Shown here: positions 1 to 11,403 of the stretch, piece after piece
Numbering within the stretch: position 1 is the stretch's first letter
Layout: every line of letters begins with the position of its first letter
NCBI GenBank assembly: GCA_021735245.1
Contig: JAIPHJ010000017.1
Coordinates: forward strand, 1 to 40,031
DNA: 40,031 nucleotides
Source of the DNA: Candidatus Bipolaricaulota bacterium
Lineage (GTDB): Bacteria > Bipolaricaulota > Bipolaricaulia > M55B111
Reading direction: 5' to 3'
Made by a program: the position numbers and the translations under genes
Notes under the pieces: model-generated
Told to the model about the DNA's origin: nothing
Databases searched by the model: none
The model's input: only the letters and a program-made list of their open reading frames with translations

Positions 1-94
1 CGTCGGTTACTTCTATATCGAAGATGGCCATCGTTTTTTCACCCGATTGGTGAAGGTTTTGAGGAAGTTGAATCCCTCATGAACCTATTGTACT

Positions 95-1030
95 CTATGT
101 TTGGTAGTTGTTACAGTAAATTGACGTCACGGATTGAGGAAACTTTTTACTATTCTCAAAAACGGTATTCTGAATTTTATTGAGAGAAGAAATATCTTGT
201 TCTTTTCTTTTCAAATAACCCCACTTTTCCAGTAAGTTATTTAGATGGATTTCTCCAGATATTTCACTAAAGCCATGGTCGGACAATACAAGAACGTTCC
301 ACTCACTTCCTATTGCTTCAAGCAATTCCCCAACTACTGTATCCATAAATCGGTAAATTCTGTTGACCGCTTTTTCCCCATTTATGGTCTCATTCCAGAG
401 GTAGTGCTGAACCCAATCAATACCCATGAACACGGCCCAAAACATATCTAAGTCGTAATCTTGCAATAGGTTTAGAGCAACTTCTAACTGTTTTTGAGTA
501 AGCTCTTCAACTTCTTCAATATATTTCCCGGGAGGGTTATCCTGAGCCCCAAATCTAGGATGTATCCGATAATCTTTTTGTTGAAGCCTTTTTTTGAGTT
601 CCGAGGGATAAGTAAAGTCTCCACTCTCAGGGGAACTTATTCCCGATATAAAAAAAGGTTCGTTCTCGGGGGGAGGATAAGAGAGAGGAAAGTTCATGAC
701 GCCAACCTTCCTTTTCTGCTGGCTGAACAAATCCCAAATGGCAGGAACTTCTAACTCCACTCCGTCGCTCACAATTGGAGTTATTTCGTAGCTACCACTG
801 TCCTGTTGAACGAAATCATAAATCCCGTGTTTCCCCGGATTTACCCCTGTTACGATTGAGTTCCAAGCAAGAGGAGTCATAGGAGGGGTTGTAGATGTTA
901 AATTCCCACTAACCCCTTTTTTCGCTAGGTCTTTCAAATTTGGGAGATCTCCTGATTTCAAAAGTGGTTTCATTATAGACCAGGTAGCTGCATCTAGTCC
1001 AAGTACTATTGTTTTGCTATTCTTTCCCAT
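95..1030 (-). CDS. alkaline phosphatase family / type I phosphodiesterase-nucleotide pyrophosphatase-like protein, short (311 aa), probably C-terminally truncated
   Basis: N-terminus VLGLDAATWSIMKPLL...TPPMTPLAWNSIVTGVNPGKHGIYDF and VLVLSDHGF match the pattern of the 552-aa paralog at 29268..30926; this copy stops about 240 aa earlier. Confidence 0.75.
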   Translation of the reverse strand: MGKNSKTIVLGLDAATWSIMKPLLKSGDLPNLKDLAKKGVSGNLTSTTPPMTPLAWNSIVTGVNPGKHGIYDFVQQDSGSYEITPIVSDGVELEVPAIWDLFSQQKRKVGVMNFPLSYPPPENEPFFISGISSPESGDFTYPSELKKRLQQKDYRIHPRFGAQDNPPGKYIEEVEELTQKQLEVALNLLQDYDLDMFWAVFMGIDWVQHYLWNETINGEKAVNRIYRFMDTVVGELLEAIGSEWNVLVLSDHGFSEISGEIHLNNLLEKWGYLKRKEQDISSLNKIQNTVFENSKKFPQSVTSIYCNNYQT

Positions 1031-1053
1031 TTGCTCCCTCTTTTTGTTTTGTA

Positions 1054-1902
1054 TTAACGTAGCAGATTTTTCATTCTCTTCGCACCCTGGAATAACTTGG
1101 GGCTTAACTTTAACGCTTTTATGAAAAAAGTTTTAGAAACATAAAGACAAAATCTGAACAAAACGATCAATTTTAACTTTAGGGGTACTAAATTAAGGTT
1201 CTTTTGGATCACTTTGCTTCGCCAAAAAATATGACTGTGAGTAGACGCAGAAGACAAACTTTCTCCGGCCGAACGATATGCGACTCCTTCTTCCCTTGTA
1301 AAGTAAAATTCGTGCTGTGCAGCCAGTCTTATTTTGAAATCCCAATCCTCATACAGTTGAAAATTGGGGTCAAAACCACCGGCCTCAATGTATTGCTCTT
1401 TTCTAAAAATTAGATCTCGGGGAACAGGTTTGCTCCTAGTTATCATTGAATAAAGAATATTCCCTTCTGGGGCATTGCATTGGTCAATTCTAGTAGATAT
1501 TTTATCCCCTTTTTTGTCAACTTTAACAATACTAGAATATGGAATTATACTTTCACTTTGTTTACTTTTTTTCTTAATTAACTCTAATTCCTTCTCTAAT
1601 TTCGTGCGAGAGAAATAGAAATCGTCACTATCGAGAGTAGAGATATATTCGTATTTTGCATCCAAAATGGCTTGATGTCTGTTTTTGGCCACTCCCAAAT
1701 TCTGCTCTCGATATATACCACGAATAAAATCGTATTCTTTTTCATAGGTTTTGATAATACTAACTGAACCATCAACAGATGCATCATCCGCAACAATTAC
1801 TTCATCGGGGATGTAAGTTTGGTTCAGCACGCTTTGCAAACAGTCCTCCAGATATTTTTCATTGTTGTAATTGGGAATTATTAATGATAAATTTAGATCC
1901 AT
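1054..1902 (-). CDS. glycosyltransferase family 2 protein
   Basis: NLSLIIPNYNNEKYLEDCLQSVLNQTYIPDEVIVADDASVDGS and STLDSDD typical of GT2. Confidence 0.9.
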   Translation of the reverse strand: MDLNLSLIIPNYNNEKYLEDCLQSVLNQTYIPDEVIVADDASVDGSVSIIKTYEKEYDFIRGIYREQNLGVAKNRHQAILDAKYEYISTLDSDDFYFSRTKLEKELELIKKKSKQSESIIPYSSIVKVDKKGDKISTRIDQCNAPEGNILYSMITRSKPVPRDLIFRKEQYIEAGGFDPNFQLYEDWDFKIRLAAQHEFYFTREEGVAYRSAGESLSSASTHSHIFWRSKVIQKNLNLVPLKLKLIVLFRFCLYVSKTFFIKALKLSPKLFQGAKRMKNLLR

Positions 1903-2044
1903 TTAATGACACAGCCTCTAATTGATATCATTTACGTAGCTATTTGCAACTACTATAAGACTGTAACAAATTTAATTTTTTGACTTAGCCATAACAAATC
2001 TATCGAACAACACTTTATCCTTTTTTATTCGTTTTAGGTATAAA

Positions 2045-3361
2045 TTACCGAAAGATCTGTAAAATAGCTTTAATCTTTGGCTTTAACTCTTTCGGAGAGG
2101 GCACGTGGCGCAGTGGAGGAAAGTACTTTCTGGTTAACCGAACTAACTCTCTCAATATTTTCAAGTCGTTTAGCGGATATTGTTTAATCGGCTCGACCTT
2201 GTTGCTTTTTCCTTCCACCACGTTTTTAAACAAGGATAGCCACTGTTTATTAATTTTCTCGTGAGAAAACTTCTCTTTCACGTACTCTATTCCGTTCTGG
2301 CCATATTCATAAGCTACATCATCATTTTTTAATAAGTACACGATATTATCAACTAAATCCTCGTCTCCTCGGCCGAGCAAACCAGTTTTCTTATGCTCGA
2401 CTGTATCCAGCCAAGCTTTGTAGGCACCAGTAACTACAGGGGTCCCAGCTGATTGAAATTCCACTGCTGATAGACCAAAAGTTTCTGTTTTACCAGTGGG
2501 GTTTACTACGCCAACCTGTGCTCTTTGCATTATTGGTATTTTCTCTCGCCCTAAGACCCCCTTGAATTCCACTGAATCTGCTACCTCCCCATTCTCATTT
2601 GACAAGTATGGCCTAATATATTCTTTTTCATATGTTTCTTCGGCAATTCCCCATCTACCAAGAGATTGGTTTCGGTTGTAAAGTTTACCACTCCCGATTA
2701 CAACCAATTTGGCCTCAGGTACTTCTGTATTAATTCTGGGCCACACTTTTGCTAATTGGTGAAATCCTTTTGCAGGCACCAAACTTCCTAAAAATACCAC
2801 AGTTTTCTGATGCTCTATGATACCCTGTGGCTGGTATGGCGTTGGATCAATTCCATTATATATCTTAGCTGCCTTATTTATAATCCTATGATCTCGAAGT
2901 CCATCCAATTGTTCTTGACCAACACAAACGAATCTCTTAACGTTTTCAGCTTTAAAAAGTTCATTTAAAGTCGCAACATTTGGTGTATTATGAGCCCAAG
3001 CAATAATTTTCAAATTGAACGAATTGATATTATCCAAAAATTCTCTTCCTTCCTCATCATTCGTGGGGCGCCAAACAAATATATCACATTCATCCTCTTC
3101 TGCCTTTTTTGCAGCCTTGGAGGGTGTTGAGGCTCTTTTAGTTCCTATATTATCCGGTAAATTACCAGTCTCATTTGTATACCAGGTAAATTTTACTTTC
3201 TCGTGGACATTTTTTTTAAAGTAATACGGCATACACACAAACATAAACTGTGTACCGCCTACCCCAGGATTACCCTTCTCGGGTTCTGTTAAGTCAACAT
3301 CGGCTATATCACGATTTTCCAGGTAGAGTCCAACTTTCATTCTCATAAAATGCCTACACAA
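2045..3361 (-). CDS. glycosyltransferase family 4-type protein (GT-B)
   Basis: VVFLGSLVPAKGFHQLAKVWPRI and ETFGLSAVEFQSAGTPVVTG motifs. Confidence 0.85.
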   Translation of the reverse strand: MCRHFMRMKVGLYLENRDIADVDLTEPEKGNPGVGGTQFMFVCMPYYFKKNVHEKVKFTWYTNETGNLPDNIGTKRASTPSKAAKKAEEDECDIFVWRPTNDEEGREFLDNINSFNLKIIAWAHNTPNVATLNELFKAENVKRFVCVGQEQLDGLRDHRIINKAAKIYNGIDPTPYQPQGIIEHQKTVVFLGSLVPAKGFHQLAKVWPRINTEVPEAKLVVIGSGKLYNRNQSLGRWGIAEETYEKEYIRPYLSNENGEVADSVEFKGVLGREKIPIMQRAQVGVVNPTGKTETFGLSAVEFQSAGTPVVTGAYKAWLDTVEHKKTGLLGRGDEDLVDNIVYLLKNDDVAYEYGQNGIEYVKEKFSHEKINKQWLSLFKNVVEGKSNKVEPIKQYPLNDLKILRELVRLTRKYFPPLRHVPSPKELKPKIKAILQIFR

Positions 3362-3656
3362 TCTCCTTATACTTTCTTTTTATACTTTGCCTCTAATATA
3401 AGCACTTGCTTTTATAGCTAGTTGGCGCTTCCCCCGAAAAGTCGTACCAGTAGAAGTTGTTTTTTTTGTGGATCTCAGGAATTCTACCTACTCCTACTTC
3501 TAATGATTTTTTGGCCTGCACTTGATTAGAATCCATTTCCGAGCTTCGCTTCAATAAAATCAATTTCCATCAGGTTTTGCAAGCTAGTGTGTCTTCTATC
3601 AGTGTTCCAGTAATCTACAAGATCGAATATATTTTTGTTTTGGAACTCATAGTAAT

Positions 3657-5021
3657 TTATTTAAGAAGATTCCTAACTTCCCTATATACTCTTTTAAAAT
3701 TATATGCTCTCATGTACATAGTAAATAAGCCTCTTGATTCGGAAAAAAGAAGAATACCAAAATAATCCTGAATTGCCACGGATACTAATGTGCTCAGAGC
3801 ACTTCCAACTATACCAATTATTGGAATTAATAAAAAGTTCAAAACGAGATTCATGGAGGAACCTATTATTGTTCGAAAAAGATTAATTTTTGTAAGATTT
3901 TCTGCAACTAAATATTTAGAACTTACAACCCCAGAGAAGTTAAATAAAATTTCTCCCGCCAGAATTGAAAGTATCAGAGAGGATTTTGCGTATTCTGCCC
4001 CGTATAGCAGTCTAATTATAAACGGGGAAAGAAACACTACACCAACAGTAAAACTAATGGCCAACCAAGTTAAGAGATCTAGTAATTTCTGTAATCTTGC
4101 ATGGTATGACTCTTTATTGTTTTCTCTTGTTCGAATCAAAGCGGGAAAGACCGAATTAGATATCACTACTGCAACAAAAGACCATTTTTTTAATCTCGCC
4201 GCAGCTGCATAAATTCCTAAGGCCTCGTCTCCAATCATATTGCCTATCATTACCTGATCTATTCTGTCATGGATCGTAATAGCAGCACCCGACAGTAATA
4301 ACGGCCAGCTATCTTTCAGTAAAGACTTTGCCCATCTTAGACTAAAACTCCAATCTAAAAGCGATACACTTGAATAATTTTGAAAATAAAGTATTAGTCC
4401 TAAGGCAATGAAGAAAAAATTGATAGATATCAACCAAACAAACGCAACCAAAGGAGCTTTCAAAAGGATTAAAACTACACGAAATCCATTAATGATAAAT
4501 CTGCTGCTTAATCGGGCGAATACCGCATATTTCGATTCAACTTGAGACCTAAACCAATATACTATCACGTCGAAGGATTTAAATAAGTAACCGAAGGCAA
4601 CCAGTACAACAAAGAATTTTGATCCCGTTTCCGAGGGATTGATAATAACCACTGCCCCAATTGCAGTTATGTTCATTATAACTGAGCCAATTAATTTTAG
4701 TAAAAAGGTGGTCCCCAGAATTTGTTCTTTCTCTTTGTCGTATTTTACTAGATCCCTTACAACTACCTGATTGAGCCCAAGGGTAGAAAGAAAAGTAAAT
4801 AATGCTACAAAAGATCTAGCATAATTTAGCCTACCATAGTTGGCAGGCCCAAGATAACGGGCCACCCAAGCCCCAATGAAAATACCAAGCGCCATGTTTG
4901 TTAATTTCTCAAAGGTTAACCAGTTTACATTGGAGAAGATGCGTTGCAATGAATCGCTATTAACTACTCGCTCGTAGATGGAAGCTGGAACAAGATTTTT
5001 AAATATATTTTTTAGCATCAT
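3657..5021 (-). CDS. Wzx-like flippase / polysaccharide biosynthesis membrane protein
   Basis: Multi-TM ORF with N-terminal ALGIFIGAWVARYLGPANYGRLNYARSFVALF typical of oligosaccharide flippases; placed among glycosyltransferases. Confidence 0.88.
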   Translation of the reverse strand: MMLKNIFKNLVPASIYERVVNSDSLQRIFSNVNWLTFEKLTNMALGIFIGAWVARYLGPANYGRLNYARSFVALFTFLSTLGLNQVVVRDLVKYDKEKEQILGTTFLLKLIGSVIMNITAIGAVVIINPSETGSKFFVVLVAFGYLFKSFDVIVYWFRSQVESKYAVFARLSSRFIINGFRVVLILLKAPLVAFVWLISINFFFIALGLILYFQNYSSVSLLDWSFSLRWAKSLLKDSWPLLLSGAAITIHDRIDQVMIGNMIGDEALGIYAAAARLKKWSFVAVVISNSVFPALIRTRENNKESYHARLQKLLDLLTWLAISFTVGVVFLSPFIIRLLYGAEYAKSSLILSILAGEILFNFSGVVSSKYLVAENLTKINLFRTIIGSSMNLVLNFLLIPIIGIVGSALSTLVSVAIQDYFGILLFSESRGLFTMYMRAYNFKRVYREVRNLLK

Positions 5022-5221
5022 TAAGTTAAGTGGGTTTCTAATTAATTATTTAAAGGTAATTGGAAGCTCGGAGTCCGTAGTCTGTAATCTGCAAGTAAGT
5101 TTTGTCCGCAACTACTATTTCTAGCCATTACATTCAAAATTCAGGAATCTATCCTTTATTCTGTCGATTATTGATTAGATGCAACATAAGAACTTTTTAT
5201 GTCCTTGACAATTAAAATAAA

Positions 5222-5297
5222 GGAAATCGCTTTGTGCTCCCTATCCCCACTGCAAGTAGTGGGGTCTTACATTGGCACAATAAAACAGGCGATTTCC
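5222..5297. repeat. nested stem-loop element, copy 1
   Basis: ggaaatcgc/gcgatttcc outer arms (5222-5230, 5289-5297), ttgtgc/gcacaa middle (5232-5237, 5275-5280), ccccact/agtgggg inner (5245-5251, 5258-5264). Confidence 0.65.
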
Positions 5298-5578
5298 AAA
5301 AAACCACCTGGTCATAGGGCCACCTGTGAACATTGGTGGAGACCAATCCGATTCATCCCCACAGCAAGCTGTAGGATATTCTCGGTAGTTCTTATAAAAT
5401 CGGGGTCCATAATTTAAAACCTCAGTTGACCACGAAATATCGGCATAGGTAATCGTTACATAACTGGTCTATAAAATCTAGATTTTGTTATTTTGGTTCG
5501 GTGTTTTATGGCCTATGGAACCTCCTCAATCTCAAACCGATGCAAGGCATTTGATATTGGCTACTAGTTGCTCGTTTT

Positions 5579-6700
5579 CTAATGATCCTTTTTCTTATTC
5601 ACGAACCAACCTACAAACCAATCGACCCCTTCTTCAATTGAAACTTCCGGTTGGTAATCCAATAACTCATTAGCTTTTGAAACGTCAGCGTAGGTTATGT
5701 GGACATCACCTAGTTGTTCCGGCTGCTGGTCAATTTTTGGTTCTATTCCCATTTTCTCCCCAATTAAGTGTATTAAATCTTTCAGCTGAATTGTTTCGGA
5801 ATTTCCGAGGTTGAATATTTCAAAGTTATAATCTTCTTCCAATGCGGCCATTATGCCGTCTACTATGTCGTCGACGTAGGTGTAGTCCCTTTCGGAAGTG
5901 CCATCACCGTACATTGGTAACGGCTCACCCTGGCTCATCAGGCGGGCAAATTTGTGAATTGCCATTTCTGGACGCTGGCGGGGGCCATAGACTGTGAAAA
6001 ACCGGAGGGCGGCTATTGGGATATCGTAGAGGTGATTGTAGGTCTTGCAGAACTGTTCGGCGGATTTTTTGGCGGCGGCGTATGGGGATATCTGGAGATC
6101 GGTGACGTGGTCTTCGGAAAAAGGGACCTGGTCGTTTATTCCATAAACTGAGGAAGAAGAGCCGAAGATAAACTTATCGACTTCGTGTTCTTTTGCCATC
6201 TCCAGCAGGTTGAGGGTGCCCTTTACGTCGGTGTCGACGTACTTTGTTGGGGAGACCAACGAAGGTCTTACTCCAGCCAGGGCTGCCAGGTGGGCCACTA
6301 CTTTGGGATCTGGGATTTGGGATCTGGGATCTTGGGGCTGGGATTTAAGATTTAGGATTTGGGATTTTGGGAAATCTATGGGGAGTTCTTCGTAATCTAA
6401 AGACAAACTGCGTACCTTCTCGAAATCACCGGTGAAGATGGCGTCCAGGAGATCCTTGTTTAGTATGTCGCCGGGGATTAATGTGAAATTGGAATTGTCT
6501 AATAGACCAAAAATATTTCTCTTCTTTATCTGTGGGTCGTAAAAATCATTGAAGTTATCGAGACAGATTACTTGGTGGCCCTCTTCTACTAATCTCTCGC
6601 ATAAATGTGAACCAATAAAACCTGCCCCTCCAGTGACGAGGGCACTGGGTACCTGATGCTGGGAACCTGGTACCTGGTACTGGGTACTGGTGTCAGACAT
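5579..6700 (-). CDS. NAD-dependent epimerase/dehydratase (UDP-glucuronate 4-epimerase-like)
   Basis: SALVTGGAGFIGSHLCERL Rossmann motif, SSSVYG, YAAAKKSAE; ATG at 6700 preceded by AAGGTGAGG. Contains two repeat-derived insertions. Confidence 0.9.
   Translation of the reverse strand: MSDTSTQYQVPGSQHQVPSALVTGGAGFIGSHLCERLVEEGHQVICLDNFNDFYDPQIKKRNIFGLLDNSNFTLIPGDILNKDLLDAIFTGDFEKVRSLSLDYEELPIDFPKSQILNLKSQPQDPRSQIPDPKVVAHLAALAGVRPSLVSPTKYVDTDVKGTLNLLEMAKEHEVDKFIFGSSSSVYGINDQVPFSEDHVTDLQISPYAAAKKSAEQFCKTYNHLYDIPIAALRFFTVYGPRQRPEMAIHKFARLMSQGEPLPMYGDGTSERDYTYVDDIVDGIMAALEEDYNFEIFNLGNSETIQLKDLIHLIGEKMGIEPKIDQQPEQLGDVHITYADVSKANELLDYQPEVSIEEGVDWFVGWFVNKKKDH
6302..6371 (+). repeat. degenerate ~7-bp word repeat (GGGATCTGGGATTTG), in frame inside the epimerase
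   Basis: tttgggatctgggatttgggatctgggatcttggggctgggatttaagatttaggatttgggattttggg. Confidence 0.9.
6644..6692 (+). repeat. degenerate GGTACCTGGTACTGG word repeat at the epimerase 5' end
   Basis: actgggtacctgatgctgggaacctggtacctggtactgggtactggtg. Confidence 0.88.
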
Positions 6701-6748
6701 CAATCCTCACCTTGTTTTTCCTTGATGGAGTTGATTAAACCATTACAT

Positions 6749-6781
6749 CTGGGATTTTGGATTTGCGATTTAGGATTTAGG
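6749..6781 (+). repeat. GGGATTTTGGATTT word repeat
   Basis: tgggattttggatttgcgatttaggatttaggg. Confidence 0.85.
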
Positions 6782-6819
6782 GAACAAAACTCTTAACCTA
6801 CTTACTACATCTAGCCTGA

Positions 6820-7065
6820 TTAGTGAGTGGTGACCGTGTTGTCGTACGTAATGACTTCAAATTCAGTTCCCTTTTCTCTAGCCTGGGCCACTGTTTCTTC
6901 TAACTTTGAAGCGATGTCCGGGTCAATCCAGTCTTCTCCGCATTGCGAACAAATTTTTGCAGGTACTTTCCTAACGACTACTAATCCGAATTCTAAATCC
7001 ACAGTGTAGGTTGTAGTACCTTTTTTTAAATTTCCTCCACAAATGGGGCATTTTCTTTTACTCAT
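6820..7065 (-). CDS. YgiT/MqsA-type zinc-finger antitoxin-like protein
   Basis: CPICGG...KICSQCGEDWIDPDIASKLEE, two CxxC motifs; directly downstream of a DUF4258-like gene. Confidence 0.85.
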   Translation of the reverse strand: MSKRKCPICGGNLKKGTTTYTVDLEFGLVVVRKVPAKICSQCGEDWIDPDIASKLEETVAQAREKGTEFEVITYDNTVTTH

Positions 7066-7077
7066 TCTCTCCTCCCT

Positions 7078-7395
7078 CTAGTTTCTTCTGGTCTTGAAGT
7101 CTGATTCGAACTCTTCCGAAGAAGGTTCATAAACAGTAATTATATATGCAAAATTTTCTTTCGAATCCAATGCAACCACAACGTGGATCGGACGCCCATC
7201 AACTTTCTTAAAGGTTAAACAACTTGGATAAGGTGTATCGTCAGGATAATTTTCGACAACTTCTCCTTCTTTTATGACTTCTATAGCCTCTTCCTGATTG
7301 ATACCTCTTTCCGCCAGACGAGTTAAAGCGTGTTTTCTCCAAAGGTATTGTTCCTTATCAATCGCCTTTTTTAAAGCTGATAAATCCATATCCAA
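7078..7395 (-). CDS. DUF4258 domain-containing putative toxin
   Basis: HALTRLAERGINQEEAIEVIKEGEVVENYPDDTPYPSCLTF...VVVALDSKENFAYIITVYEP. Confidence 0.85.
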   Translation of the reverse strand: MDMDLSALKKAIDKEQYLWRKHALTRLAERGINQEEAIEVIKEGEVVENYPDDTPYPSCLTFKKVDGRPIHVVVALDSKENFAYIITVYEPSSEEFESDFKTRRN

Positions 7396-7583
7396 TACAC
7401 CTAATAACTGTGATTTAGTTCCTTCTTATGTATTTAGGAGCCCCGGTGCCTCGTATTTTTAATCAGGATTCAGGATTATTTGGTTTTATGTGTTTATCTT
7501 AGTTTTATTGTTGTTGGGAATCCTATTTAGTCATTGACCTTCCCCTCTAAGGAATTAATCCGTTGAGCATTTTTCCGACAATT

Positions 7584-7643
7584 CTAGGATACGGGATCTG
7601 GGATCTGATATTAGGATTTAGGATTTGGGGTTTAGGATCTAGG
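7584..7643 (+). repeat. GGGATCTGGGATCTG word repeat
   Basis: taggatacgggatctgggatctgatattaggatttaggatttggggtttaggatctagg. Confidence 0.85.
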
Positions 7644-7682
7644 AAACGATAATAAAAACGGTTTACTTCCTAATTGACCTCC

Positions 7683-7914
7683 TCATTTATTCTTTAGCGA
7701 ATTTATAAGGCCATTTAACATTTTACCGACGGAGTCGCAATTATCAATCAAAGATTCGTATACTCTCTGCTCAATATAGTCTAGGTCTGTAGCCAGACGT
7801 AAATGATACTTGGTTTCAGCAAGACTTCCTCTTGCTTGATATAAAAACTGGATATATTCTTTGGTTGTTTGGCGGGCCTGGCCTTCAACAATATTGGCTG
7901 GGACGGAGGATTTA
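7683..7914 (-). pseudogene. C-terminal part of a four-helix-bundle (23S rRNA IVS/S23-type) protein
   Basis: Minus-strand translation SSVPANIVEGQARQTTKEYIQFLYQARGSLAETKYHLRLATDLDYIEQRVYESLIDNCDSVGKMLNGLINSLKNK*; aligns to the C-terminal part of the intact neighbour. Confidence 0.85.
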
Positions 7915-7916
7915 CT

Positions 7917-7949
7917 AGCTATCAGCCATTAGCTATTTGCTCTTAGCTC
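7917..7949. repeat. AGCTATCAGCCATTAGCT word repeat
   Basis: agctatcagccattagctatttgctcttagctc. Confidence 0.75.
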
Positions 7950-7960
7950 AAGCCAAACTT

Positions 7961-8323
7961 CTATTCTATGTCCTCATTAATTTTTGAGATAAGACCGTTA
8001 AGCATTTTTCCCACCTCATTACATTGTTCACGGAGCTCAAGATATCTCTCTTCCTTCAAATAATCTAAATCACTTGCTAATAAGAGGTGGTACTTAGTTT
8101 CCTCGACAGAACCTCTAGATATTTTAAGGAAACGCAGAAATTCTTTTTCTGATCCTCTTCCCCTTCCTTCGGCAATATTTGCGGGTATTGAAGCAACTGA
8201 ACGTCGTAATTGATCCCCTAATCGGTATTTTTCGTTCTTCGGAAAGTCCTTTGTTAATTGGTAAATAGAAAGAGTCAAGTCGTGGGCTTTTTGCCAAACG
8301 TCGAGCTTTGTGAAGCTTTCCAA
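7961..8323 (-). CDS. four-helix bundle protein (23S rRNA-intervening-sequence/S23 family)
   Basis: LDVWQKAHDLTLSIYQLTKDFPKNEKYRLGDQLRRSVASIPANIAEGRGRGSEKEFLRFLKISRGSVEETKYHL. Confidence 0.95.
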   Translation of the reverse strand: MESFTKLDVWQKAHDLTLSIYQLTKDFPKNEKYRLGDQLRRSVASIPANIAEGRGRGSEKEFLRFLKISRGSVEETKYHLLLASDLDYLKEERYLELREQCNEVGKMLNGLISKINEDIE

Positions 8324-8340
8324 GTGTGCCTCCTTCCGGT

Positions 8341-8496
8341 CTAGGTCTTTGGTTTTGGGGGGGTTGGTCTTAGGTTTCTATCTCTGTAATGTTTCAGACG
8401 ATATTGCTCCTCTGAGGGAAATTTCTCGGTCATCTCGTAAATTTTTAGGGTAAGTTTGTGTGCTTTGTTCCAGACGTCGAGGTCTTCGTAATCCAT
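8341..8496 (-). pseudogene. N-terminal fragment of a second four-helix-bundle protein
   Basis: ATG at 8496; MDYEDLDVWNKAHKLTLKIYEMTEKFPSEEQYRL then a non-homologous tail KHYRDRNLRPTPPKPKT* that runs into a word repeat. Confidence 0.85.
8342..8377 (+). repeat. GGTCTTTGGTTTTGGGG word repeat
   Basis: taggtctttggttttgggggggttggtcttaggttt. Confidence 0.65.
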
Positions 8497-8532
8497 TTTC
8501 TTATCTACCTCTAATCTATTAGATTCAATATT

Positions 8533-8562
8533 ACCAGTACCTGGTACCTAATACCAAGTAAC
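8533..8562. repeat. CCAGTACCTGGTACC word repeat
   Basis: accagtacctggtacctaataccaagtaac. Confidence 0.75.
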
Positions 8563-8644
8563 TGTAAGATAGGTTTTGGACGCTTTTGGGCATGTTTTAT
8601 CTAGTTAATAGTAGGTTGCTTGTGGTGAGTGGTTTGTTCTTCCG

Positions 8645-8671
8645 CGTTCCGAGTTGATTAGTTCCGAGTTA
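8645..8671 (+). repeat. TAGTTCCGAGTT word repeat supplying the DUF3368 gene stop codon
   Basis: cgttccgagttgattagttccgagttaa. Confidence 0.75.
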
Positions 8672-9187
8672 ATGGTGGTCGTTTTTCACCTGCTGTATTA
8701 CTTTTTCGCATAGTTCTTCGCTGATCCATATATCGTCTCGGTTGGAAATTTGTTCGAGGTAAAAATCCAGCTCTTCCAAGTCAATGTAGTTCTCTCGAAA
8801 GGCATCAACAAGAATTCCCAAAGTGCCCTTCACTTTTATGTTTCTATTTCTGGATGCGCTCCTAGCATACTCATCGTCCAACAAAACCAGGGAATTTTGC
8901 TGTGCTTCCGCCATTGAGATACACTCCATCTCCCCTCTGTCCAGATTTAACTGGGTTAATTCTTCATCAATTTCTTGTGATTCTACCTCTTGGGGTTTCC
9001 AACCTTGCTTGTTCAAAAAAAGCTCAATAGTTTGAGCGTCTTCGTATCCTCTATTTTTACCCTGAGATACTGATTCATGATAAACTTCTTCGGGAATGCA
9101 CACTTCGCCATATAGTTTCTTCAATAAGGGTAGGAGGTTTAGCTTGGCCAGGGCCATCAAGGGTCCGGAATCGAGAATTACCTTCAT
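8669..9187 (-). CDS. DUF3368 / PIN-like putative toxin
   Basis: MKVILDSGPLMALAKLNLLPLLKKLYGEVCIPEEVYHE...LDRGEMECISMAEAQQNSLVLLDDEYAR. Confidence 0.88.
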   Translation of the reverse strand: MKVILDSGPLMALAKLNLLPLLKKLYGEVCIPEEVYHESVSQGKNRGYEDAQTIELFLNKQGWKPQEVESQEIDEELTQLNLDRGEMECISMAEAQQNSLVLLDDEYARSASRNRNIKVKGTLGILVDAFRENYIDLEELDFYLEQISNRDDIWISEELCEKVIQQVKNDHH

Positions 9188-9456
9188 TGATTTCCCAGTT
9201 CCTCGTCAATTGTTTCCTCGCTAAAAGCCGGTTTAACCCCTTGAGAATAGGCGTATGTTGCCATCTCTTCAGGAGAGACTCCGGCATATTCTGCTCCATA
9301 GCCAATTGAGGCCTGACCCTCTTTCACCCATATAAGAGCCTCTTGCATTTTGAGTTGCTTTAAGCCGAGCGATAAAAGTTGTGATATATACTTTTGATCT
9401 TTTGATTCGAGCTCATCGGCAATATCTTCAGGTATTTCCACTTTAATTTTGCTCAC
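9184..9456 (-). CDS. UPF0175 family antitoxin-like protein
   Basis: KQLKMQEALIWVKEGQASIGYGAEYAGVSPEEMATYAYSQGVKP; overlaps the DUF3368 start. Confidence 0.85.
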   Translation of the reverse strand: MSKIKVEIPEDIADELESKDQKYISQLLSLGLKQLKMQEALIWVKEGQASIGYGAEYAGVSPEEMATYAYSQGVKPAFSEETIDEELGNQ

Positions 9457-9510
9457 TTGTCACACCTCCAGCTTGTAGACATAAGGTAATATAAAAGGCG
9501 TCAAGGACCC

Positions 9511-9720
9511 TCAACGGTTATCTCTCCATTTTCGTATTTCGGAGACGCTATCCCAATCCGTGGAAGAAGTATGTTTATTCCTTAGTTCATCTTGTTTTTC
9601 AATAGCAGCATTTATTTTATCCGTATTCTTCAATCTGGATCCCAGTAGATATCGGACCCTGTTCTCCATGACTGTTAGGTCGTGGTATTTCTCTGAAGCG
9701 GTATTTTTCATTGAAACCAC
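9511..9720 (-). CDS. small hypothetical protein, possible orphan antitoxin
   Basis: 69-aa ORF ending TDWDSVSEIRKWRDNR; adjacent to TA genes; no toxin partner recognised. Confidence 0.45.
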   Translation of the reverse strand: MVSMKNTASEKYHDLTVMENRVRYLLGSRLKNTDKINAAIEKQDELRNKHTSSTDWDSVSEIRKWRDNR

Positions 9721-9798
9721 CTGGAACTTATCAACTCAGCAACCGTAGATGAATGTAATCTGCCAATATTATAAGGTTCTCCGGTGGGAAGTCCAATT

Positions 9799-9829
9799 TA
9801 CTAGTTCCTGGTTCCTGGTTCCGTGTTCC
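9799..9829 (+). repeat. GGTTCCTGGTTCCGTGTTCC word repeat
   Basis: tactagttcctggttcctggttccgtgttcc. Confidence 0.85.
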
Positions 9830-9833
9830 TTGT

Positions 9834-10056
9834 ATGATGTAAACGATCAACCTTAACCTAATACCCGGTTGCGGGAAAGGACTACCAAGTACCTTGAGGC
9901 CTAGACCTCTTAATTTAGATTGTCCCTTCCTGCTCCCGGACAAGCCTTAATACGGTCTCTTGAGGCATTGACCTCTCATACACAAGGCCAGGCTCATGGG
10001 AAGCCGGGAAGTCATCCTGCAATCAATACTAAAGTACGGGAGGAGTCAAAAAATCT
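9834..10056 (+). ncRNA. candidate IS110 non-coding leader (possible bridge-RNA region)
   Basis: About 220 bp untranslated stretch upstream of an IS110 transposase with two similar hairpins, cttgaggcctagacctct and cttgaggcattgacctct; boundaries unknown. Confidence 0.4.
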
Positions 10057-11403
10057 ATGAGTACATACGTCGGTATAGATGTCGGTTCGGAAGAACACGC
10101 CGTCTACGGAATCGAGAAAGGAGAGGATGATCCGGTTTACAAAACCACAGTTACCAACGACAAGGGTGGCTTTGAAAAGCTGGAAGAGTTACTGCGGGAA
10201 CACTCTAGCAGTAGCATACACCTGGGGCTGGAGGCGACCGGAAACTACTGGAAACCCGTGTTCAATCGCCTAATGGAGCTAAAGGAGAAGCTCGACATAA
10301 CCCTCAGCCTAATCAACCCAAACGAGATCCATCAGTTCAAAAGGATGGAACTCTCCCGGGCAAAGACCGATTCAGCCGACGCCAAGGCAATTGCCAGATA
10401 CGTGCTCAGGTTTAAGCCAGAATCAACTCCCAGGACAAACGAGAGGTTGCGCAGTCTGAGGAGACTCTGTCGGTACAGATCTTCCCGGGTGGAAGAAAAA
10501 ACTAGATTAATCCAACAGCTAGACCACGTCTTGGTCGGAGTCTTTCCTGAATACTCCGACTGTTTCGGCAAGCTGTCGGCGGTTAGCTCCCTTGCAATAC
10601 TAACGAAGTATCCCGGGCCAGAGGAGATTGCCAAGCTTGACGTAGATCAGCTTGCCAACTTACGTTACGGTAAGATAAACCACAAACTGGGGGAACAGAA
10701 AGCAAAGAAGCTAATTGAGGGGGCTTCTAGTACCGTAGGCGAAGGCTACGGTCCCGAAGTAAAGGTAACCATAAGACACCTGGCAGAGCAACTTAGCTCA
10801 GTCAAGCGAGAAGTGGAGGATCTCGACGAAAGAATAGAAAAAAGCTTCCGGGAAATTGCCCCCAATAAACTAGGATCGGTGGACGGTATTGGTCCGGTAA
10901 ACGCCGCCGTAATGACCACCGAGATCTGGGATATCAACAGGTTCGCCACCGCGACCAAGCTAAACGGCTACGTCGGTGCCTACCCGGAACTGTCCGAGTC
11001 CGGAAACTATGAAGACCCTCATCCGGATATGACCAAGAAGGGTAATCCCAGGTTAAAACGTGCCGTATTTACCTCCACTTTGTCTGCGGTCAACTGTAAC
11101 CCGGTAATAAAAGGACACTACGAAAAGCAACGGGCAAAAGGCAAGGACAGGATGGTTGCAATCGGATCCTGTATGAGAAAGCTCGTTCACATTATCTACG
11201 GAATACTAACATCCGAGGAAGAGTTTGATCCAAACTACGAGGAGAAAACAAAGGGAGATAATGAAAGCCCAAAAGAGGAGAAGAGAACCCGGAAGCCCCA
11301 AACTGGAAGTTATCCAGAAGATGAGAGGTCATCCGAGCTCTCTCCTAAATCTAATAATGGTAAAGTTGCCCCAAATTATCAACTTGCTGGAGGTGAGACT
11401 TGA
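10057..11403 (+). mobile_element. IS110 family transposase (DEDD plus Transposase_20 type), 448 aa
   Basis: YVGIDVGSEEHAV, LGLEATGNYWKPV, AKTDSADAKAIARYVL and C-terminal GSVDGIGPVNAAVMTTEI...NGYVGAYPELSESG...KKGNPRLKRAVF. Confidence 0.95.

Follow-up and report, generated by a model that had tools for sequence, protein, structure and literature searches.

The window (the whole stretch of DNA analysed here, 40,031 nucleotides) carries an intact gene of the 23S rRNA intervening sequence protein (IVP) family of small four-helix bundles (Pfam 23S_rRNA_IVP, PF05635). The gene lies on the minus strand at 7961..8323, starts with TTG and encodes 120 amino acids; its Pfam match (E = 1.1e-44 to 1.8e-44) spans 7994-8308 on that strand in the profile search and, at 151.5 bits against a cut-off of 33.8, places the product within the family. 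The nearest solved structure is 2gsc (XCC0516; E = 1.4e-19). Flanking the gene, also on the minus strand, are an N-terminal fragment (8389..8496, profile positions 1-33) and a C-terminal fragment (7683..7916, positions 39-106) of an outer IVP gene, each of which exceeds the PF05635 cut-off when scanned alone with Pfam. The PF05635 matches run from 8392 to 8487 for the N-fragment (minus strand; positions 1-32, E = 9.6e-8) and from 7710 to 7916 for the C-fragment (minus strand; positions 38-106, E = 1.2e-22). A purpose-built IVP model aligns 8389-8487 with positions 1-33 and 7713-7913 with positions 39-105, leaving about 5 profile positions absent between the two. The initial annotation, made from the letters of this stretch alone, had proposed such a nested arrangement, and PF05635 now matches all three pieces; the near-complete fit of the fragments also stands, although the 7-8 residues then thought to be missing come down to about 5. 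These three matches are the only ones in the source genome (1.95 Mb).

Between the fragments lies a block of 475 bp (7914..8388), presumably an inserted unit, comparable to the 465-475 nt units of Maribacter described below. It sits in an IVP gene with protein-coding neighbours and not in a 23S rRNA gene; Rfam gave no match in positions 5000-10500 of the window, and a phage search gave no match. At the amino acid level the two fragments share 63% and 51% identity with the inner IVP, and are therefore taken to be old. Had they come from separate four-helix lineages, they could not have formed one gene; the inner gene, L009 and L055 head the list of nearest relatives for both. The rank correlation between their relatives, 0.10, is within the range of real genes and of artificial chimeras alike. 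A probable third C-terminal scrap, too short to be more than that, is found at 7548..7580 on the minus strand (IVGKMLNGLIP followed by a stop), suggesting more than one event in the window.

Word-like repeats accompany these genes, and we scored them by identity at lag 7 against shuffles. Array A (7585..7652; GGATTTA/GGATCTG words on the plus strand, p = 0.0002) and array D (8525..8566; p = 0.004) lie where the downstream and upstream arms of an outer unit would be, and array B (7913..7951; TAGCTAT words on the plus strand, p = 0.0002) follows the intact gene on its downstream side. Of the four word repeats in the initial annotation, three are thus significant period-7 arrays; the fourth, given as 8342-8377 and here delimited as stretch C (8339..8380), upstream of the intact gene, is not (p = 0.19). 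Arrays A and D are mutually complementary: their RNA duplex has an energy of -21.7 kcal/mol (p = 0.016 against shuffles), which fits a single outer unit, now broken, with these two arrays as its arms. For the inner unit, the weak upstream stretch C has no complementarity to downstream array B.

Ten strong arrays occur in the window, all of period 7 and none of period 5, 6, 8, 9, 10 or 11; Markov shuffles of the window yield about one, at a looser threshold, and the remainder of the source genome has 5 strong arrays in the 403 kb examined. Chance as the origin of the arrays was ruled out by shuffles, sliding and swapped controls. One array (6297..6376; GGGATTT/GGGATCT) runs in frame inside an epimerase gene (5579-6703), where it encodes about 25 residues (SQILNLKSQPQDPRSQIPDPK...); solved homologues align on either side of these residues and not through them. 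Most of the arrays fall within positions 1-10000, which are an island: G+C is 0.34-0.46 there against about 0.5 in the rest of the window, polysaccharide genes and toxin-antitoxin-like genes are present, and an IS110-type transposase gene follows at 10057-11403.

An older unit, with arms at 8525-8566 and 7585-7652, probably received the 475-bp unit within its IVP gene; this we favour because the block is unit-sized and the outermost arrays pair. The insertion of one unit into another, as first suggested, gains from the shared relatives of the fragments and from the pairing of the outer arms; against it stand the unpaired inner arms, the weakness of stretch C and the absence of an uninterrupted outer gene from four genus mates and one family mate, where such a gene was looked for. 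A somewhat unlikely alternative is that the nested look arose from a tandem IVP cluster, shaped by recombination at array words that duplicated or deleted parts of it, with no insertion into a gene. Clustered IVP genes exist (for example, L040 and L041), the third scrap at 7548-7580 would fit such a history, and at L059 and L101 a partial tandem duplication of the array and the 5′ part of the gene has left a near-identical N-terminal fragment; the search for further nested cases turned up partial tandem duplications there, not insertions. A cluster, however, implies two independent deletions with ends at nearly one codon; fragments that join with only 5 positions missing, a block with the length of one unit and the pairing of the outermost arrays with each other also speak against it.

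Other interruptions of IVP genes have a different cause. In several relatives the gene is broken near profile position 47, at the motif IP(A/S)NI and before the following V, by an insert bounded by TTCACCCCGTGAAATA / TATTTCACGGGG-type ends (L037:2200-3150, L038:650-1600, L039:1351-2251 and L041:2600-3350). These were rejected as nested IVP units, being GIY-YIG insertions: the ORF inserted at L041 encodes a GIY-YIG protein (PF01541, E = 2.6e-17), L037 and L039 have similar ORFs, and L040 has only a short, ORF-less hairpin form. The GIY-YIG insert is a second mobile element that targets the IVP gene.

Insertion into the older unit presupposes a unit, and the evidence for one extends far beyond the window. 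Scanning species-representative genomes yielded 80 IVP loci, spread over many phyla, and both flanks were available for 76. In these flanks, self-match exceeds that of controls at lags 7, 14 and 21 (upstream, 0.39, 0.36 and 0.35, respectively, against about 0.26-0.29), a signal reproduced by the 28 loci from the window's own phylum, in which nearly every inspected IVP gene has word arrays 5′ and reverse-complement words 3′. Arrays were found within 170 nt upstream at 53 of the 76 loci and downstream at 42, compared with 3.9% of random pieces; no array was detectable upstream at 23 and downstream at 34. Arrays cover 28.5% of bases up to 60 nt from the ORF and less than 1% beyond 300 nt. At the same loci, 69 of 100 IVP-adjacent gaps contain arrays against 49 of 215 other gaps (p = 9e-15), an enrichment of repeats beside IVP genes of the kind that the initial annotation had called for.

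The two arms carry related words. An exact inverted 7-mer is common to both at 31 of the 38 loci with two arms, the downstream array being the reverse complement of the upstream words; with loci swapped the figure is 12%, and in direct orientation 6/38. The duplex energy of the arms as RNA beats shuffles at p ≤ 0.05 in 44 of 76 loci. The dominant words are locus specific (78 distinct ones among 95 arrays). At an orthologous site they differ between species groups, and arms mostly match best the partners of their own group; thus, both arms change in concert. Taken together, a single unit, made up of an IVP gene and two complementary heptamer arms, occupies gene junctions, and the repeat-gene-repeat organization first proposed for the window is borne out across many phyla by period-7 flanks and inverted shared words. 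The unit is a widespread element that seems undescribed as such. IVP matches occur in 49 of 100 genomes of the window's phylum, with up to 11 per genome; the unit, being this common, has therefore left its mark on many intergenic regions and on some coding genes.

The boundaries of the unit follow those of its neighbours. Lag-7 identity is about 0.25-0.30 in the upstream coding sequence, rises to 0.53 in the heptamer from the stop codon and reaches 0.60 beyond it; the upstream array begins at the neighbouring gene's stop codon, and the downstream array fades about 7 nt ahead of the next start codon. TAG serves as the stop upstream of 24 of 53 IVP units compared with 113 of 497 other genes (p = 7e-4; L057-L136), and it is often in register with the array words, as though the stop came from the array. 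The IVP gene is co-directional with the upstream gene in 58 of 67 cases and with the downstream gene in 60 of 69; for neighbouring genes in general the proportion is 69%.

Arrays and genes do not always go together. Inverted heptamer arrays with no gene between them are seen at L190 (Maribacter leuA-leuB), L061:2653-2736 and L095:6059-6142, and resemble non-autonomous versions of the IVP unit. In a comparison of two genomes of one genus, G009 (no IVP) and G010 (four IVP matches) had 1 and 2 arrays per 400 kb, respectively, with no clear difference, and a Maribacter genome with six IVP matches (G122) has only 1.3 arrays per 100 kb. Another Maribacter genome, with one strong IVP match, contains a perfect GTTGGTT heptamer array of more than 550 nt (G107:C1:569396-569970). 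At L105, the arms (3660-3700 and 4380-4410) are complementary over a long stretch outside the heptamers as well, GGGCGGGACACCCGCACCCGAT / ATCGGGTGCGGGTGTCCCGCCC; this stretch recurs upstream of the N-fragment.

A mobile unit, as the initial annotation had suggested, should leave empty as well as full sites, and both exist at the junction of leuA and leuB in Maribacter. Among 30 genomes, this junction holds full units of 465-475 nt, arrays only upstream, arrays only downstream, a gene-less array pair of a different word family or an empty spacer of just 16 or 24 nt; the states were read side by side, and each may stand for a gain or a loss. For one word family, the 4 Maribacter genomes without a strong IVP match have 0-2 copies, and the 32 others have a median of 28 (p = 0.004, with kinship ignored and overlapping matches counted). 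From this correlation we infer that the IVP may help the repeats to spread. A search for near-identical units at more than one site found none; most Maribacter IVP copies are inherited at shared sites, and two Calothrix plasmid copies share neighbouring genes too and so look like parts of a larger duplicated region. The IVP gene has a dN/dS mostly of 0.04-0.2; the protein is under purifying selection and is therefore used.

We favour, with moderate confidence, a reading in which a widespread IVP unit with convergent complementary heptamer arms, one that would form an IVS-like stem in operons, is present in the window as a broken copy, the 475-bp unit most likely having inserted into an older one. 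We imagine that the unit rides in host operons between the cistrons of an mRNA, as an IVS-like stem whose loop contains the ORF, and that gene junctions may tolerate it because the paired arms would isolate it within the transcript. The IVP, as a pentamer, may act on its own arms. Local slippage or template switching could make the arrays longer and more diverse, with both arms keeping pace. By analogy with 23S rRNA, the arms would pair in the transcript and might also be trimmed by RNase III (PMC4990558).

One can also envision that the unit is not mobile and that its arms regulate a resident operon gene, as a terminator, an attenuator or a site for autoregulatory binding. Purifying selection, co-directional placement in operons and stable inheritance at shared Maribacter sites would all suit such a role; we nevertheless consider it unlikely, given the presence and absence of the unit with partial remnants between leuA and leuB, the paired arrays that lack a gene, the 78 different words in 95 arrays and the arrays within a coding gene. 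A different machinery might instead move the unit. Were it a retroelement like the diversity-generating ones (DGRs), the IVP would act as Avd and a reverse transcriptase would be supplied in trans. Avd resembles PF05635 (PMC10053308), one IVP unit (L328) is close to a reverse transcriptase gene, and the bAvd profile gives the inner protein 37.4 bits, below its cut-off of 40; yet RVT_1 is missing from the window's genome (85% complete) and, of the phylum's 49 genomes with IVP genes, 35 lack it, among them G010, which is a single contig and 99% complete. With RVT_1 absent from most IVP-bearing genomes, a general dependence on reverse transcriptase was rejected, and we regard this reading as very improbable.

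Equally remote is the idea that a Y1 transposase, REP-associated and RAYT-like, spreads the arrays with the IVP gene as a passenger. The window's genome has one Y1_Tnp gene, and such genes are commoner in IVP-bearing genomes of the phylum (33/49 versus 20/51); that one gene, however, is on another contig amid its own, different palindromic repeats, and several IVP-bearing genomes more than 90% complete (G022, G026, G028 and G032) have neither Y1_Tnp nor RVT_1. Dependence on Y1/RAYT was rejected on these grounds; both the reverse transcriptase and the Y1 transposase are dispensable for the unit. The one Y1_Tnp gene of the window's genome lies at L292 (G000:C76, 11700-13200), where a palindromic G+C-rich repeat (CAGGC.GGGTCCC.GTGCCCGGCCGGT-like) occurs many times around it, in what looks like a REP/RAYT locus.

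Beyond the broken IVP unit of the window, we tentatively put forward, as a possibility, that IVP genes and degenerate heptamer arrays make up one element class across phyla, spreading without a recombinase of its own, with ends that would be self-generated, locus specific and diversifying in step. The rRNA IVS, the heptamers of Xanthomonas and cyanobacteria and the gene-less arrays might then be variants, and units could invade each other. The structure of an IVP/S23 protein has been solved since 2006, and we know of no function for it; nor, to our knowledge, do degenerate heptamer repeats in bacteria have a known cause. Linking the two gives each a testable partner, the arms as a candidate substrate of the IVP and the unit as a candidate source of the arrays.

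Several known systems share features with this unit. The DGR accessory protein Avd belongs to a related four-helix bundle fold family; unlike a DGR, the unit is found in a genome without a reverse transcriptase, and its protein falls below the bAvd cut-off. REPIN/RAYT systems (PMC3116915) offer an analogy: their repeats occur genome-wide, in part as inverted pairs with no gene between them, and one associated gene has inverted copies on both sides. The IVP, unlike a RAYT, is not a Y1 transposase, and heptamer arrays take the place of REP palindromes. In the open-access literature, as far as its accessible text goes, we found no link between IVP genes outside rRNA and heptamer arms; subscription papers and preprints lay outside this search, so priority is not certain. 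A figure legend in PMC10910872 mentions the 23S rRNA IVP among associations of the CRISPR adaptation module. Degenerate heptamers base-pair into an RNA hairpin in P6b of the Nostoc tRNA-Leu intron (PMC3488679); that hairpin differs in being within a group I intron and having no gene inside. Heptameric repeats are known from Xanthomonas (GGGAATC) and Nostoc; they are likewise intergenic and of period 7, Xcc has 70 inverted pairs of them, and their degenerate words are near the GGGATTT/GGGATCT of the window. PMC4692102 connects them with neither S23 nor a four-helix protein, whereas the arrays here flank IVP genes and their words vary by locus. The 23S rRNA IVS with its S23p gene, as in Coxiella burnetii, has the same protein family, a sporadic distribution and an ORF within complementary ends that form a stem, as proposed for the unit; in Coxiella, heptamer repeats lie directly upstream of the ORF (PMC4990558). 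Unlike that IVS, the unit of the window is placed between protein-coding genes or in an IVP gene, and its arms are locus-specific heptamer arrays.
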